A DNA stretch of 64,000 bases from Frateuria flava (lineage in GTDB: Bacteria; Pseudomonadota; Gammaproteobacteria; Xanthomonadales; Rhodanobacteraceae): NCBI RefSeq assembly GCF_017837635.1, contig NZ_JAGJRS010000017.1, forward strand, positions 1 through 64,000, read 5' to 3'. Shown here piece after piece: positions 42,863-49,573 of the stretch (the first letter of the stretch is position 1; every line of letters starts with the position of its first letter). Under the pieces are notes generated by a model, which saw only the letters and a list, made by a program, of their open reading frames with translations, searched no databases and was not told the DNA's origin. Position numbers and translations under genes: made by a program.

Positions 42863-45319
42863 TTACTGGGTCTTGACCGCCACGTCGTCCACCACGAACG
42901 AGGTCTGCAGGCTACCGTCCTCCACCCCGTAGAAGTTCACCTGCACCGTCTGGCCCTTGTAACCATTCAGGCTGAGGGTGTGGTGCTGGTAGCCGCCGGC
43001 GGCGTCCTTGTTGGAGTAGGTGGCCAGCGTGATGTACTTGCCGGTGGAGGTGATCACCTGCACCTGCAGCGTGTCGTAGGCCGTGCCGGTACCCTCGGCG
43101 CTGTCGACGTGCAGGTAGAAGTCCAGCGTCGCGCTTGTCACCATCGAGGGAATGCTCACCTTCTGCCGCACGTAGTCGGTGTGGCTGCTGCCGTAGCCGT
43201 CCAGCCAGGCCTTCCAGCTGCCGGCGTGGGCTGCCTCGCTGCTGTCGCTGGTCATCACCCCGCTGGTCTGCGTCCAGGCGGTGGCGCCGCTCTCGAAGCC
43301 GCCGTTGCTCAGCAACTGGCTGCTGCCGCCACCGCTGCCGTTGGCGACGCTGAAGCCCACGCCGGTGCTGCTGCCGACATTGCCGGCCGCGTCATAGGCC
43401 TTGGCAACCAGCGTGTGCGAACCATCGATGAGCGTGGTCGAGTCGAGGCTGGCCTGGTAGGGCGAGCTGCTGTCGGTGGCCTTGAGCGCGCCATCGACAT
43501 GGAACTCCACGCGGCTGACGCCGACGTTGTCGCTCGCCGTGGCGGCCAGCGTGATGGTGCCCGCGCTGCCGCTTTCGGAGGCACTGACCGTCGGCGGCGT
43601 GGTATCGCCGCCGCCACCGCCGCTGCCCTGGCTCACCCAGACTGGCGCCGACCACAGCCGGTTGCCGTCGGCCTGGGTGATTTTGGCGTAGTAGAAGTGC
43701 TCGCCTGCGGCTGGCGTGATGGTGGTGGTGGCGGTGTCGGACAGCTGCGTGACCGTGCCATTGCTGCCGGGCACGCCCTGGAACACCTGCACGCGCTGCG
43801 CACTGTCGCCGGATGTGCTGGCGTAGTTCACGGTCAGCGTGAGCGACCCCGAGTTGCTGAAGCGCTCGCCCATGACATGGCCGTTGGCGGTGAGCACGAT
43901 CTGGTCGGTCTTGTCCTCGGTGGCGAACACGCGGCGCGCGCGCAGCGCATCGAGGAAGCTGCTCAGGCTGAGGGCAGTGCCGGCGGGGATGAGCACGCCG
44001 GTGCGATTGGTGTAGCTCGCTCCCCAATTGGCGCAGTGGTTGTCCTGGTCCGAACTGGGCGCCACGTGGTAGCCGCGCTCCAGGATGGTATTGAAGGCGG
44101 TCTCGTAGTTCGGCCGCGAGGTCTCGGTCTCGCTGGTGTTGGCCGAGAACGCGGAGCTGTTGAGTACCTCGGCCAGCACCATCACCGCGTCGCCGTCGGC
44201 CGTGTAGCCGAAGTTGGTGCCGTTGACCACGAACTGGCCGCTGGACGCGGGATGGTTGAACTGGCCGATCCAGCCGTGCTGGCGCATCAGCGTGTACAGC
44301 GAGGCGTAGTCGCCCTTGGCGATGTAGTAGTCGCCGATCACCTGGCCGGCACTGTTCTTCTCCCACTCGATCAGGCCGTCGGCGTTGATGATGTTCATGT
44401 GGCCGCCATTGCTGATCACGCCCCACTCCTGGCCGTACACGGCGAGGAAGTTGGGGTGCGCGGCACGGAACGCGCTGGCCGCCTGCAGGCCGGAGGCGAA
44501 CAGGCTTTTCGCGGTGGCCGGATCGGCCGAGGTGTTGGTGCCGGTGGAACCGTCGAACATGTGGTTGTGTTCGGAGGTCATGAGCATGTCCAGCCCGCGG
44601 TTCATCGCGTACTGGTAGGCGTCGGCCGGACCGTAGGCGCTGCTCTGCGGCGCCTGTTCGCTGTCGCAGGTGGCCAGGTCGCCGCCGCCGTCGCTGTGGT
44701 TGGTCTGGCTGTGCAGGTTGCCGTAGTAGATCGTGTAGGGCAGCGAGCCGGCACTCACCGACTGCGCCTGCAGCGTCTGGCCGTGGCGCGGCAGCGCGCG
44801 GAACGCCGGCACGCGCGCGGGCGCCACGTGACCGACCTGGATGTCGTAGCGCTGCTCCTCGATGCGCCCGGGCGCGCGATCGACGGCCAGGGCCAGCGCG
44901 TGCCCGGGCAGGCCGGTTCCCAGCTGGCGGATGCTGGCTTCGTCCAGCGCGATCGCGCGCAGGCGCACCGTGTAGTAACCGGCCGGCAGGGCTTCGCCGT
45001 GGCCGCCCTTGCCGTCCCAGCGCAGGCGGGCCGTGGCAGTGCGCGCGTGCAGCGTGCTGTGTCCCTCCCACGCGCGCAGCACGCGGCCGTCGCGGTCGAG
45101 CAGCGCGACCTCCCAGGCGACCGGCGTGCCGACCGCGGCGCCCGGATAGGCGAAGTGCAGCGCCACCGGCCGGCCGGCGGTCGCCTGGAACGGCACCTGC
45201 AGCGACGCCTCGAATTCCTGGTGGTCAGGCAGCGCCGCGGCGGCCGACACGGCCGGAAGACCGCAGCATCCCAGGCCCGCGAACATCAGCGCGCGAGCCA
45301 GCGAGAACCTTGCATGCAT
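42863..45319 (-). CDS. Secreted PHP (CehA/McbA-type) metallohydrolase with Ig and C-terminal beta domains
   Basis: An 818-aa exported protein. Signal peptide MHARFSLARALMFAGLGCC... (AxA near residue 24). A PHP phosphoesterase-like domain spans about 200-460: YYGNLHSQTNHSDG (metal-binding HxxxxxH), TSEHNHMF, GQEWGVISNGGHMN, QFNHPASSG and SSDQDNHC carry the expected His/Asp/Glu ligands. After a beta region comes an Ig-like domain (about 571-660; begins DTTPPTVSAS, ends AYDAAGNVG), a Gly/Ser linker and a C-terminal sandwich (668-818; QLLSNGGFESGATAW) of the kind found in carbohydrate- or surface-binding modules. AGGGG lies six bases before the ATG at 45319. Substrate unknown: CehA/McbA relatives hydrolyse carbamates or phosphoesters. 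Confidence 0.82.
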   Translation of the reverse strand: MHARFSLARALMFAGLGCCGLPAVSAAAALPDHQEFEASLQVPFQATAGRPVALHFAYPGAAVGTPVAWEVALLDRDGRVLRAWEGHSTLHARTATARLRWDGKGGHGEALPAGYYTVRLRAIALDEASIRQLGTGLPGHALALAVDRAPGRIEEQRYDIQVGHVAPARVPAFRALPRHGQTLQAQSVSAGSLPYTIYYGNLHSQTNHSDGGGDLATCDSEQAPQSSAYGPADAYQYAMNRGLDMLMTSEHNHMFDGSTGTNTSADPATAKSLFASGLQAASAFRAAHPNFLAVYGQEWGVISNGGHMNIINADGLIEWEKNSAGQVIGDYYIAKGDYASLYTLMRQHGWIGQFNHPASSGQFVVNGTNFGYTADGDAVMVLAEVLNSSAFSANTSETETSRPNYETAFNTILERGYHVAPSSDQDNHCANWGASYTNRTGVLIPAGTALSLSSFLDALRARRVFATEDKTDQIVLTANGHVMGERFSNSGSLTLTVNYASTSGDSAQRVQVFQGVPGSNGTVTQLSDTATTTITPAAGEHFYYAKITQADGNRLWSAPVWVSQGSGGGGGDTTPPTVSASESGSAGTITLAATASDNVGVSRVEFHVDGALKATDSSSPYQASLDSTTLIDGSHTLVAKAYDAAGNVGSSTGVGFSVANGSGGGSSQLLSNGGFESGATAWTQTSGVMTSDSSEAAHAGSWKAWLDGYGSSHTDYVRQKVSIPSMVTSATLDFYLHVDSAEGTGTAYDTLQVQVITSTGKYITLATYSNKDAAGGYQHHTLSLNGYKGQTVQVNFYGVEDGSLQTSFVVDDVAVKTQ

Positions 45320-45421
45320 ATGAACCCCTACACGTTGGCAAGGATTCCCCCGACAGGTTTTATAGCCCTCGACCGATGGCGGCGGTATCGCCAAAATTCG
45401 TAGGAAAAATTCCCGGCATGT

Positions 45422-48070
45422 TCATAGCCAGCGGCCGTAGCGCCGGATGTACACGCGCTTGACCAGCTGCGTCAGTGCGGCGTAGCAAAGCAGCGTCAAC
45501 GCCAGCCAGCCGAAGTAGGCCATCGGCAAGCCGGTCATCCCGAGCTTGGCGCCCAGACCGCTGTAGGGGACGAGCAGGCCGATCACGCCGATCGCGAGCG
45601 TCAGCGCCAGCACGGGCGCCGCGGCAATGCTCTGCACGAACGGAATCCGCCGCGTACGGATCATGTGCACGATCAAGGTCTGCGACAGCAGGCCCTCGAC
45701 GAACCAGCCGGACTGGAACAACCCCTGGTGTGCCACGTCGTTTGCGCCGAACACGTGCCACAGCAGCCAGAACGTGGTGAGGTCGAAGATCGAGCTGACC
45801 GGCCCCACCCAGGCCATGAAGCGGCCGATGTCGCTGGCATCCCACTGCCGCGGCGACTTCAGGTACTCCTCGTCCATGCGATCGAACGGGATCGCCAGCT
45901 GCGAGATGTCGTAGAGCAGGTTCTGCACCAGCAGCTGCAGCGGCAGCATCGGCAGGAACGGCAGGAAGGCGCTGGCCACCAGCACGCTGAACACGTTGCC
46001 GAAGTTCGAGCTGGCGGTCATCTTGATGTACTTCATGACGTTGCCGAAGGTGACGCGTCCCTCGATCACGCCCTCCTCCAGCACCATCAGGTTCTTTTCC
46101 AGCAGGATGATGTCGGCCGATTCCTTGGCGATGTCGGTGGCGCTGTCCACCGAGATGCCCACGTCGGCCTCGCGCAGCGCGGGCGCGTCGTTGATGCCAT
46201 CGCCGAGGAAGCCGACGGTGTGGCCCTGGCGCTGCAGCGAGCTGACCACGCGCGCCTTCTGCAGCGGCGACATCTTGGCGAACACGGTGGTGCGCGCGAC
46301 CAGCGCGTCGAGCGCCGGTTCATCCAGCGGCTCGATGTCGCGGCCTTGCGCGGAATGGGTGACTTCCAGCCCGACCTCGCGGCAGATCTTGCGGGTCACC
46401 GCTTCGTTGTCGCCGGTGATCACCTTCACCGCCACGCCGTGTTCGCGCAGCGCGGCGATGGCGGTGGCGGCCGAGTCCTTCGGTGGATCGAGGAAGGCCA
46501 GGCAGCCGATCGCCGTCAGACCCGCCTCGTCGGCCAGGCCATAGGCGCGCCCGCTCGGGTCCTGTCGTTTGACCGCCACCACCAGCACGCGCAGGCCGTC
46601 CTCGTTGAGCCGGCGGGTCATTGCGCGGATCTCCGCGCGTTGTGCGTCGTCCAGCGTGGTGTCGACGCCATCCAGCCGCGCAGCGGTGCAGATGGCGAGC
46701 ATTTCCTCGACCGCGCCCTTACACACCAGCAGGTGCTGACCGTCGTCGCCGGCGAGCACCACGGACATGCGCCGGCGCTGGAAGTCGAACGGGATCTCGT
46801 CGACCAGCCGGAAGCGCGCGGCCATCGGCTCGAGGTTGCGGTGCGCGAGCACCGCCTTGTCCATCAGGTTCTTCAGTCCGGTCTGGAAGCGGCTGTTGAG
46901 GTAGCCGAATTCCAGCGCCTCGTCCGAAGCCTCGCCGTGCAGGTCCAGGTGGCGCTCGAGCACGATCCGGTCGAGCGTCAGCGTGCCGGTCTTGTCGGTG
47001 CACAGCACGTCCATCGCACCGAAGTTCTGGATCGCGTTGAGGCGCTTGACCACCACCTTGCGGCGCGACATCGCCATCGCGCCCTTGCCCAGGTTCGCGG
47101 TGACGATCAGCGGCAGCATCTCCGGCGTCAGGCCCACCGCCACGGAGAGCGCGAACAGGAAGGCCTGCAGCCAGTCGTGCTTGTCCAGCCCGTTGATGGC
47201 GAACACCACCGGCACCATCACCGCCATGAAGCGGATCAGCAGCCAACTGACCGAGCGCACGCCGCGGTCGAAGCTGGTCTGCACGCGCTGGCCGGAGAGC
47301 GTGTGCGCCAGCGAACCCAGATAGCTGCGGGAACCGGTCGCCACCACCACGGCGGTCGCGGTGCCGCTGACCACGTTGGTACCCATGTAGCAGATGCCGG
47401 GCAAGTCGAGCGGATTGGCGTTGCCCTCGGCCAGGTCGCGCGTCATCGGCGCTGCCTTCTCCACCGGCAGCGATTCGCCGGTCAGGATGGCCTGGCTGAT
47501 GAACAGGTCCTTGGCCGAGAGCAGCCGCAGGTCCGCGGGCACCATGTCGCCCGCGGCCAGGTGAACGATGTCGCCGGCGACCAATTCGCCGACCGGCACC
47601 TCGATGCGCTCGCTGTGGCCGTCGGCCGCGCGGCGGGTCACGCTAGCGGTGTTGCGCACCATCGCCTTGAGTTGCTCGGCGGCGCGCGAGGAGCGGTATT
47701 CCTGGGTGAAGCTGAGCAGCACGCTGATGCCGACCATCACGGCGATGATCAGCGGCCCGGTGAGATCCTCGCGATCGGTCGCAAGCTGGACGATGGCCAG
47801 CAGCACCAGTACCGCGATGAACGGGTTGCGGCAGGCGCGCAGCAGCTGGCGCGACCAGTGCGGCGGCTTCTCGTGCGAGACCTCGTTGGTGCCGTCGCGG
47901 TGCAGGCGCGCGGCGATGCGTTCGGCATCCAGGCCGCTCGTGCCGGTATCCATGCGGGCCAGCAGGTCGTCGTTGCGCAGCCGCGCGTAGTCGGCCGCCG
48001 TCACGCGTGCGGGGGACGCGCTCCTGCCGGTCGCCCGGGCCGCCGCGCTGTGGAGGGTGTGCCTGATCAT
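45422..48070 (-). CDS. mgtA: Magnesium-translocating P-type ATPase MgtA
   Basis: Imports Mg2+ through the inner membrane, driven by ATP. The 882-aa product closely resembles E. coli MgtA (898 aa). TGES is at 197-200 (actuator), Asp359 in DKTGTLT is the phosphorylation site, GDGINDAPALREADVGISVD is the hinge, and GRVTFGNVMKYIKMTASSNF then NVFSVLVASAFLPFLPMLPL (after the hinge) lead into the C-terminal helices with the LFQSGWFVEGLLSQTLIVHMI run. The ATG at 48070 fits the usual N-terminus. It is preceded by a roughly 550-nt leader with a promoter, two small ORFs and several hairpins (see findings). E. coli mgtA is also leader-controlled, by PhoP, Mg2+ and the MgtL peptide. Confidence 0.95.
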   Translation of the reverse strand: MIRHTLHSAAARATGRSASPARVTAADYARLRNDDLLARMDTGTSGLDAERIAARLHRDGTNEVSHEKPPHWSRQLLRACRNPFIAVLVLLAIVQLATDREDLTGPLIIAVMVGISVLLSFTQEYRSSRAAEQLKAMVRNTASVTRRAADGHSERIEVPVGELVAGDIVHLAAGDMVPADLRLLSAKDLFISQAILTGESLPVEKAAPMTRDLAEGNANPLDLPGICYMGTNVVSGTATAVVVATGSRSYLGSLAHTLSGQRVQTSFDRGVRSVSWLLIRFMAVMVPVVFAINGLDKHDWLQAFLFALSVAVGLTPEMLPLIVTANLGKGAMAMSRRKVVVKRLNAIQNFGAMDVLCTDKTGTLTLDRIVLERHLDLHGEASDEALEFGYLNSRFQTGLKNLMDKAVLAHRNLEPMAARFRLVDEIPFDFQRRRMSVVLAGDDGQHLLVCKGAVEEMLAICTAARLDGVDTTLDDAQRAEIRAMTRRLNEDGLRVLVVAVKRQDPSGRAYGLADEAGLTAIGCLAFLDPPKDSAATAIAALREHGVAVKVITGDNEAVTRKICREVGLEVTHSAQGRDIEPLDEPALDALVARTTVFAKMSPLQKARVVSSLQRQGHTVGFLGDGINDAPALREADVGISVDSATDIAKESADIILLEKNLMVLEEGVIEGRVTFGNVMKYIKMTASSNFGNVFSVLVASAFLPFLPMLPLQLLVQNLLYDISQLAIPFDRMDEEYLKSPRQWDASDIGRFMAWVGPVSSIFDLTTFWLLWHVFGANDVAHQGLFQSGWFVEGLLSQTLIVHMIRTRRIPFVQSIAAAPVLALTLAIGVIGLLVPYSGLGAKLGMTGLPMAYFGWLALTLLCYAALTQLVKRVYIRRYGRWL

Positions 48071-48090
48071 CGGGTCCGCTTCCGTCTGTC

Positions 48091-48122
48091 GCCTGATCGA
48101 CCGGCGCGCGCTTCGATCAGGC
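48091..48122 (-). promoter_or_regulatory. Hairpin upstream of mgtA that can also pair with the start codon
   Basis: In the mRNA, arm A GCCTGATCG (48122-48114) pairs perfectly with arm B CGATCAGGC (48099-48091) across a 14-nt loop. Arm C, TGATCAGGC at 48069-48061, overlaps the mgtA start codon (ATGATCAGGC) and can pair with arm A by eight Watson-Crick pairs plus one G-U. So either A:B (start open) or A:C (start closed) can form. Confidence 0.55.
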
Positions 48123-48210
48123 GCGCGCGGCTACCGAAGATCCGGACGTCTGGACGGCCGGACCGGGTGCCGACCTGGCGGAGGCCAGCTGTTGTGCACC
48201 CGATGCAGAC

Positions 48211-48399
48211 TCACCCTTTCACCACGTGCGGCAATGGCACCGCCTGGGTCACCACCACGGGATGGTGCCCTCCGGTCACGCCCGCAGCGGCCAGCGGCGC
48301 GGGAACGGTAACGGTGTAGACCGGCCGCGTTACACGGCGGCGGTCGATGGCAAGGCGGCGCCACAGGCGCAGCCACGAAACATCGCGAAGCAGGTTCAT
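48211..48399 (-). CDS. Small ORF 2 of the mgtA leader, 62 aa
   Basis: Unrecognised. GAGGAG lies seven bases before the ATG at 48399, one of the best ribosome-binding sites in the window. The product MNLLRDVSWLRLWRRLAIDR is strongly basic at its start and ends in a Pro/Val/His-rich tail (GGHHPVVVTQAVPLPHVVKG). It is read on the mgtA strand, between the promoter and mgtA, and ends 140 bases before the mgtA start. It could be a leader peptide whose translation governs mgtA, or a small protein regulator of MgtA. Confidence 0.55.
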   Translation of the reverse strand: MNLLRDVSWLRLWRRLAIDRRRVTRPVYTVTVPAPLAAAGVTGGHHPVVVTQAVPLPHVVKG

Positions 48400-48418
48400 G
48401 ACCCGACTCCTCGTAACG

Positions 48419-48491
48419 GTGCCGGCGGCACCGCGGGAGTGGGCCGGGCGTTTCCTAGTCGAGGAAAGCGCCGGCCGACCGCAGGCGGTCG
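48419..48491 (-). promoter_or_regulatory. Three hairpins between leader ORF 1 and ORF 2
   Basis: H1: CGACCGC/GCGGTCG at 48476-48491, inside the end of ORF 1. H2: TTTCCT/AGGAAA at 48451-48467, which covers the ORF 1 stop codon (48455-48457). H3: GGTGCC/GGCACC at 48419-48433, just upstream of the GAGGAG site of ORF 2. A ribosome finishing or stalling in ORF 1 would open H1 and H2. Confidence 0.45.
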
Positions 48492-48571
48492 CCCCAGGCG
48501 TTCAGTTTGTAATGCGACGCCGGCACCCGATGCGAGCGGATGTCGACGTTGCGACTAGGGTAGACGTCCAT
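48455..48571 (-). CDS. Small ORF 1 of the mgtA leader, 38 aa
   Basis: Unrecognised 38-aa product, MDVYPSRNVDIRSHRVPASH followed by YKLNAWGDRLRSAGAFLD, on the mgtA strand. Start ATG at 48571 has AAGG three bases upstream, a poor site. A TTG start at 48655 would add 28 residues but falls on the -35 element of the predicted promoter, so the ATG is preferred. The mix of Pro, Arg and Tyr residues and its position resemble a leader peptide such as MgtL, but the sequences are not alike. Confidence 0.4.
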   Translation of the reverse strand: MDVYPSRNVDIRSHRVPASHYKLNAWGDRLRSAGAFLD

Positions 48572-48626
48572 AAGCCTTGGAAGGTCTCGGGGAATGCCGC
48601 GGCGCAGCGCGCCGGACGGCGCGCGC

Positions 48627-48655
48627 ATTCTGTTTTGCGAACCCTTGCCTGTCAA
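48627..48655 (-). promoter_or_regulatory. Sigma70-like promoter of the mgtA leader
   Basis: Consensus -35 TTGACA at 48655-48650 and -10 CAGAAT (4 of 6) at 48632-48627, 17 bases apart. It starts 13 bases past the cyoE stop codon, so mgtA need not be read from the oxidase operon. The predicted start near 48620 gives a leader of about 550 nt before mgtA. Confidence 0.6.
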
Positions 48656-48667
48656 GCAGGCAACAGG

Positions 48668-49573
48668 TCAGGCGGCTCGCTGCAGTACGACGCCGGCGTC
48701 CTGCACCGGCCCGATCAGCCAGTGGTCGGCAAGCAGGAACGCAAACAACGCCATCAGGTACACGATCGAGTACTTGAACACGCGCATGGCGAAGAACTCG
48801 TCCGGCGGGTTCATCAGGCGGATGGCGTAGTAGAGGAAGCCCGCACCCAGCACCACCGCGCCACCTAAGTACACGCCGCCGCTGAAGCCGGTCAGCGCCG
48901 GCAGCAGGGTCACCAGCACCAGCAGCACGGTGTAGAACAACACGTGCCAGCGCGTGTAGGTGACGCCGTGGGTGACCGGGAGCATCGGGATCTCCGCGCG
49001 CGCGTAGTCCTCGCGGCGGAAGATCGCCAGCGCCCAGAAATGCGGCGGCGTCCACACGAAGATGATCAGGCACAGCTGCAGCGCAAAGGCGTGCAGCTGT
49101 CCGGTGACGGCGGTCCAGCCCAGCACCGGCGGGATCGCGCCCGCCAGGCCGCCGATCACGATGTTCTGCGGCGTGGCGCGCTTGAGGTAGGCGGTGTAGA
49201 CCAGCGCGTAACCGATCAGGCCGCCAAAGGTCAGCCACGCGGTCAGCGGGTTGACCAGCAGCGCCAGCACCAGCATCGAGGCGATGCCGAGCGCGATGGC
49301 GAACAACAGCACCTGACGCGGCTTGAGCGCGCCGGTGGCCAACGGCCGCCGCTGCGTGCGTGCCATCAGCTTGTCGATGCGCTCGTCGATCAGATGATTG
49401 AAGGCCGCGGCCGAGCCGGAGGCCATCCAGATTCCCAGCGTGCCGAATACCAGCGCGCGCCACGGCGGGATACCCGGCACCGCCAGGAACATCCCGATCA
49501 CGGCGCAGAACACCAGCAGCGCGACCACGCGCGGCTTGGTCAGTTGCAGGTATTCGCGCAGGTGCGCGCTCAT
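48668..49573 (-). CDS. cyoE: Protoheme IX farnesyltransferase (heme O synthase)
   Basis: Adds a farnesyl group to protoheme to make heme O (inner membrane, UbiA family). The 301-aa product has the prenyltransferase motif [20 protein letters not shown] (residues about 58-77) with its two aspartates, a second Asp-rich loop region and nine hydrophobic segments. The ATG at 49573 overlaps the ctaA stop in an ATGA arrangement. It also goes by ctaB. Heme O from here is turned into heme A by CtaA for the aa3 oxidase. Confidence 0.94.

Follow-up and report, generated by a model that had tools for sequence, protein, structure and literature searches.

The stretch of DNA analysed here, hereafter the window, comprises 64,000 nucleotides (nt) of contig NZ_JAGJRS010000017.1 of Frateuria flava, a member of the Rhodanobacteraceae. 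On its minus strand the window carries mgtA (45422-48070), which encodes a magnesium-translocating P-type ATPase (TIGR01524, 1277 bits against a cut-off of 611). The subject of this analysis is the mgtA leader, in which all features described below lie on the same strand. The leader contains a structured RNA element of ~140 nt (48435-48576) and two small open reading frames (ORFs). ORF 1 (48571-48455, 38 codons) is coextensive with the RNA element, and ORF 2 (48399-48211, 62 amino acids) is preceded by a GAGGAG ribosome-binding site at 48412-48407. A short upstream ORF before a Mg2+ transporter gene is the arrangement found in MgtL-type leaders. An initial annotation of the window had described both ORFs, three hairpins (48491-48476, 48467-48451 and 48433-48417) and a lack of sequence similarity to MgtL. 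These descriptions hold: the coordinates are correct, the hairpins are conserved, and relatives of ORF 1 and ORF 2 occur in 59 and 29 of 97 Rhodanobacteraceae genomes, respectively.

By covariation, the stretch holding ORF 1 is conserved at the RNA level. The predicted fold consists of helix P2 (48515-48551), hairpin H1 (48476-48491), hairpin H2 (48443-48475; outer stem GCCGG/CCGGC, inner stem UUUCC/GGAAA) and a pseudoknot joining the ORF 1 start to the H2 loop. The 5' strand of the pseudoknot, UAGUCG, lies near the ORF 1 start (48552-48557). The 3' strand, CGACUA, lies in the H2 loop (48456-48461), where it overlaps the UAG stop codon of ORF 1. The helices were drawn by eye on alignment A1 and then tested on alignments A2 (37 sequences) and A3 (46 sequences, including divergent copies). 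In A2, 92.2% of pair cells were paired versus 23.5-46.7% when the structure was slid, and pairs changed on both sides numbered 10 versus 3.6 in shuffles. The corresponding shares in A3 were 90.0% and 25.4-47.7%, with 18 pairs changed on both sides versus 7.8 in shuffled alignments (a number reached in 0 of 500 shuffles) and a covariation score of 0.181 versus 0.124. Across A3, such double changes affect two of the six pseudoknot pairs (U-A to C-G in three sequences, C-G to A-U in three), three of six pairs in H1, and two of five outer and three of five inner pairs in H2. Double changes are also found in 8 of 12 main pairs of P2, with none in its two apical pairs; the two outer pairs of P2 are frequently open (in 18 and 33 of the 46 sequences). 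RNAalifold alone, applied to A1, returned 30 pairs, eight of them double-changed. The leader contains a conserved covarying fold, as is expected of riboswitches. The window element matches model R2 at 154 bits (E-value 2.1e-41), with the window itself being among the R2 training sequences. A known RNA family was rejected for lack of Rfam matches, as Rfam 15 produced no gathering-level match in the window or in 12 relatives, and at E-values up to 10 just two weak, unrelated matches within 47900-48800. The Rfam 15 families include the Mg sensor, the M-box and the Mn riboswitch. A literature search, with limited coverage of subscription papers, found no title describing this element.

The coding properties of ORF 1 point in the same direction. 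Across 63 loci, the ratio of non-synonymous to synonymous variation (pN/pS) is 0.92, and the three codon positions vary equally (0.097, 0.114 and 0.090), which suggests no peptide constraint beyond the RNA. The frame itself is preserved. In the 90 rows of alignment A4, which are fitted to the model and related to each other, the length from the ATG to H2 keeps the frame in 84 rows. An in-frame stop lies 2, 5 or 8 nt beyond the H2 5' arm in 82 rows and 1, 3 or 4 nt beyond it in four more, the exceptions being loci L086, L164, L167 and L177. Frame 0 is stop-free in 89 of the rows versus 26 and 12 in the other two frames. Because ORF 1 stays open and in frame while its peptide is not conserved, being translated up to the stop inside H2, rather than the peptide product, seems to be under selection.

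Further comparisons rest on 117 of 123 loci. Left out were L093 (a chance match inside another gene), L086 (ORF 1 frame broken), L164 (ORF 1 stop lost; NRAMP next), L169 and L170 (contig ends; mgtA after L169) and L181 (24.6 bits, no ion gene found). ORF 1 begins M-D-x-x-P at 116 of the 117 loci, with Asp2 present at 117 and Pro5 at 116. The near invariance of these residues, together with ORF 1 relatives that are 68-92% identical in many genomes, could speak for a functional or ribosome-arresting micropeptide, the RNA fold being a by-product of codon constraint. We regard this explanation as very improbable, given the pN/pS and the equal variability of codon positions, paired positions that change on both sides, and a fold that survives the broken frame of L086 and L167. 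On the codon statistics, a conserved ORF 1 micropeptide was rejected. ORF 2 has a conserved N-terminal part with a TVTVPAPL-like motif, where pN/pS is 0.63 and third codon positions are the most variable, versus 0.91 in the remainder (53 loci, as ORF 2 was not detected by the search rule at 10 of the 63). The initial annotation had called the leader dual-peptide, a term that applies only in part: ORF 1 appears to be mainly conserved RNA kept open and in frame, and ORF 2 a weakly constrained peptide. The two mgtA loci with a broken ORF 1 frame and a retained element and fold (L086 and L167) are natural test cases.

A candidate regulatory platform lies directly behind H2. Duplex energies and covariation indicate that the strand following H2 (GGCCCACUCC, 48445-48436) is able to pair with the ribosome-binding site and start linker of ORF 2 (GGAGUCGGGUC, 48410-48400), to which it is complementary. 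Between the two strands of this predicted helix, P5, lies hairpin H3 (CGGUGCC-GCC-GGCACCG, 48417-48433), seen in folding and in the alignment fold, which would form the apical part of the P5 hairpin. Over the 117 loci, mean P5 duplex energies were -20.6 kcal/mol with the own partner, -16.6 kcal/mol across loci and -12.5 kcal/mol after shuffling, and the own partner was better than the cross-locus mean at 110 loci. Among 111 anchored loci, and as counted on predicted duplexes, one P5 position holds C-G in 88 and U-A in 23, and the next position C-G in 85, G-C in 11, U-A in 6 and few others. The left strand of P5 shares GGC with the outer stem of H2. Because the 3' strand of H2 has the ORF 2 ribosome-binding site as an alternative partner (P5 plus H3), the P5 and H2 folds are predicted to be partly exclusive. 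A platform exclusive with part of the fold is a further riboswitch-like property, here judged by sequence only. As to an intrinsic terminator serving as the platform, no U-run was seen by eye after H3 or H4 (a hairpin further downstream), and no dedicated terminator scan was made.

The element is widespread within the Rhodanobacteraceae. Model R2 at E ≤ 0.01 matched 159 of 233 genomes in 22 of 26 genera, with at least G001 and G360 among the 159 being weak partial matches. A pattern scan of named genomes returned 109 stretches; among the 80 listed, the genera are Dyella, Rhodanobacter, Luteibacter, Frateuria and Fulvimonas, and the remainder come from metagenome bins or from isolates named at a higher rank. 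The searches outside the family used strict filters, which may lose distant members. Model R1 matched 62 of 299 genomes of the order, all in Rhodanobacteraceae among the matches listed, and R2 matched 64, the sole outsider to the family among the matches listed scoring 20.8 bits. In a sample of the class, R2 matched 4 of 274 genomes, namely the own genome and three at 19.7-21.7 bits. Across 39 hand-picked genomes, the nine MgtA copies preceded by the element reach 1244-1311 bits, and no other copy exceeds 1191 bits. Because element-bearing copies score above all others, the element, by this measure, follows one MgtA clade. Genome G060, from the same genus as the window, has neither the element nor a high-scoring MgtA. 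Second, more distant MgtA-like ATPases (~800 bits) were observed in G005 (C10) and G031 (1.53 Mb), with no element among the matches listed there.

The genes behind the element are mostly related to ion transport. The gene mgtA lies downstream in 59 of 65 fetched ORF 1 matches. At the 117 loci, the first downstream gene is mgtA (73), an S-adenosylmethionine (AdoMet)-decarboxylase-like gene (14), CzcB (13), OprB (7), sodium/phosphate (Na/Pi) transport (5), a CPA1 Na+/H+ antiporter (1), NRAMP (1) or a TonB receptor (1), with contig ends at two loci. Examples of these families were confirmed by Pfam or NCBIfam and the others assigned by similarity; L160 was assigned to OprB rather than CzcB because an over-extended query had produced its CzcB match. 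At L128, L162 and 12 more loci, the first gene behind the element is the small AdoMet-decarboxylase-like one. The AdoMet_dc domain scores 31.6 bits at L128, over the cut-off of 25, and 23.6 bits at L162, just under it. This gene is followed by NRAMP at 8 of the 14 loci and by a TonB receptor, confirmed by Pfam, at the three others scanned. The NRAMP copies resemble the Mg2+ transporter EleNRMT (7qia, 187 bits, next best 74) and read TxxA in helix 6 in 10 of 10 copies (register by eye). In NRMT Mg2+ transporters, helix 1 carries DxxG and helix 6 TxxA/T (PMC8806188). At four loci, the right strand of P5 coincides with the start of the transporter gene itself, namely at L171 (CzcB-like), L173 and L176 (Na/Pi) and L175 (OprB), which are among the lowest-scoring members (29.7-41.1 bits). 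L177 was rejected as a directly controlled locus, with P5 at just -6.6 kcal/mol. An ATGA overlap joins ORF 2 to the Na/Pi start at L125, L126 and L161.

The genes behind the element suggest that the leader is under Mg2+ control. With related copies in front of other ion-transport genes, the element appears to be an ion-control switch of a new type within one bacterial family. The same RNA might alternatively sense a signal other than Mg2+, such as a polyamine, another divalent cation or pH, and the loci led by AdoMet-decarboxylase-like genes, CzcB, OprB or the Na+/H+ antiporter would be in line with this. However, mgtA comes first at the 73 loci given above, and the next transporter at 8 of the 14 decarboxylase-like loci is the Mg2+-transporter-like NRAMP. 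A different signal is somewhat unlikely in our view.

The initial annotation had placed the structural switch closer to mgtA, with arm A (GCCTGATCG, 48122-48114) pairing alternately with arm B (CGATCAGGC, 48099-48091) or with arm C (TGATCAGGC, 48069-48061) over the mgtA start codon. The three arms are present in the window, but their conservation fails even within the genus. Arms A and B are both absent in congeners L031 and L034, with B altered in L033, and were rejected as a switch; arm C corresponds to the conserved first codons of MgtA. We give this model practically no credence. From the earlier description, the two small ORFs and a structural switch survive; absent from it were P2, the pseudoknot and P5, the helix that can hide the ribosome-binding site of ORF 2. 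The covarying switch appears to sit inside the first ORF and at the ribosome-binding site of the second, not over the mgtA start.

We suggest that the element is probably, though by no means certainly, a cis-acting RNA switch read by ribosomes and serving the homeostasis of a cation, probably Mg2+. We infer both Mg2+ as the signal and the sign of regulation. At low Mg2+, ribosomes might fail early in ORF 1 or not load, in which case H2 and the pseudoknot would stay folded, the ORF 2 site would be open and ORF 2 would be translated. Translation of ORF 2 could then turn the operon on, through coupling or through protection from an early transcription stop. If translation of ORF 1 reaches the stop codon, the ribosome would melt H2, P5 would form, ORF 2 would be shut and the operon would be off. 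At some loci, the same hairpin might act directly on the transporter gene. Directly controlled and coupled genes are both found among the open-site loci, so the simplest common sign is that an open site means an active operon. Early Asp and Pro codons are typical of ribosome-destabilising Mg2+ leaders, and codons 2 and 5 of ORF 1 encode Asp and Pro. This start recalls that of MgtQ, in which Asp2 and Glu5 are reported to be important (PMC8092293). More tentatively, and with somewhat less than even confidence, the element could represent a new class of cation-sensing RNA. In such a class, the sensing fold would be a translated ORF with its stop codon in a pseudoknot, integrating folding and ribosome passage and redeployed in front of six or more kinds of ion-related gene.

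In a true riboswitch, by contrast, direct binding of Mg2+ or a different small ligand to the pseudoknotted fold would stabilise H2 and expose the ORF 2 site, with ORF 1 translation being secondary. The layout with a site-hiding hairpin is riboswitch-like, and pseudoknots need Mg2+. A riboswitch of this kind requires that ORF 2 translation shuts importers like MgtA, as MgtL and CorL do, while efflux genes go on. High translation of upstream ORFs represses mgtA and corA in enterobacteria (PMC11552253), which counts in favour of a riboswitch. Against it, ORF 1 retains its frame and stop throughout the RNA, which is unexpected for a pure aptamer, and the sign would have to differ among loci although the Na/Pi genes are directly controlled or coupled. 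We consider a ligand-binding riboswitch to be clearly unlikely.

Several observations weigh against the proposed ribosome-read switch. Drawing the structure by eye, and on sequences that are related, inflates pairing, and the shuffles ignore relatedness. A slide of +2 still gives 25 double-changed cells in A3 versus 49 for the structure, and the 200-nt fold is moderately stable versus shuffles (z -2.31; 6 of 200 as good). The nested minimum of the window (-86.2 kcal/mol) is the P5 state, with the site hidden and H2 replaced by a long-range helix that uses the same strands as the pseudoknot. The site-free fold, with the pseudoknot not scored, reaches -73.5 kcal/mol and is 12.7 kcal/mol costlier, and this gap ranges over 2.6-19.8 kcal/mol across the 117 loci (mean 12.9). 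With the site hidden in the nested minimum, opening it requires the pseudoknot, a bound factor or a particular folding order. The conservation of Asp2 and Pro5 may stem from RNA constraint. Among the downstream genes, the NRAMP copies read DxxA rather than DxxG in helix 1 in 9 of 10 cases (DxxG in 1 of 10; register by eye), and CzcB/CzcA efflux is a poor fit to induction by low Mg2+. The gap between ORF 2 and mgtA is long (median 165 nt), unlike in classical coupling.

Other features surround the element. The predicted promoter TTGACA-N17-CAGAAT (48627-48655, with TTGACA at 48655-48650 and CAGAAT at 48632-48627) was correctly located in the initial annotation and is conserved. TTGAC occurs 5' of ORF 1 at 116 of 117 loci, at any position within a 90-nt stretch, and a -10 of the GACAAT or CAGAAT type is common among 51 relatives compared. 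Right after the -10, a possible 5'-end hairpin, P0 (GCGCGCC-GTCC-GGCGCGC, 48607-48624), can be drawn, and many relatives have a similar GC hairpin by eye. Hairpin H4 (CUGGC-CUCC-GCCAG, 48175-48188) has its core in 39 of 59 mgtA leaders. The CUCC-type loop of H4 is complementary to ribosome-binding sites, and the bare core is also found at 5 of 25 non-mgtA loci, in other settings. A heme o synthase gene lies upstream. Directly 3' of mgtA, and on the same strand, lies a gene for a CehA/McbA-family metallohydrolase-like protein with an immunoglobulin (Ig)-like domain (42863-45394).

If the proposed switch is real, it would join the M-box and the enterobacterial mgtA leader as a third RNA solution for the control of Mg2+ or cations, and would do so in bacteria without such an entry in Rfam 15. 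Genes for Mg2+ import, polyamine-type functions, phosphate and metal efflux would be joined in one RNA-controlled set. A coding sequence selected for fold and translation, not for its peptide, would offer a clear test of Mg2+ sensing by RNA versus the ribosome.

Among known systems, the mgtE motif of Thioalkalivibrio is a strong riboswitch candidate (PMC11109978). It is likewise a lineage-restricted RNA before a Mg2+ transporter gene, in another lineage and before another gene. The M-box Mg2+ riboswitch of M. tuberculosis pe20 controls a small upstream ORF (PMC12810186). It resembles our element, being a structured leader ahead of genes for Mg2+ transport whose target is the ribosome-binding site of a small upstream ORF. 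It differs in that the ORF of the M-box lies downstream, whereas ORF 1 lies inside the structured RNA, which matches no Rfam family. Riboswitches that sequester ribosome-binding sites also have helices that exclude each other, with one of them covering the site, but here the putative aptamer is translated. The enterobacterial mgtA, mgtCBA and corA leaders (MgtL, MgtP, MgtQ and CorL) similarly have short ORFs that are translated and lie within alternative RNA structures, ahead of genes for Mg2+ transporters, with Asp or Pro near the ORF start. Unlike these leaders, our element has no Rfam match and no sequence likeness to them. Its ORF 1 spans a covarying pseudoknotted RNA with the stop codon in a loop, its platform would be the ribosome-binding site of a second ORF or gene, and the element is also found before non-Mg2+ genes.

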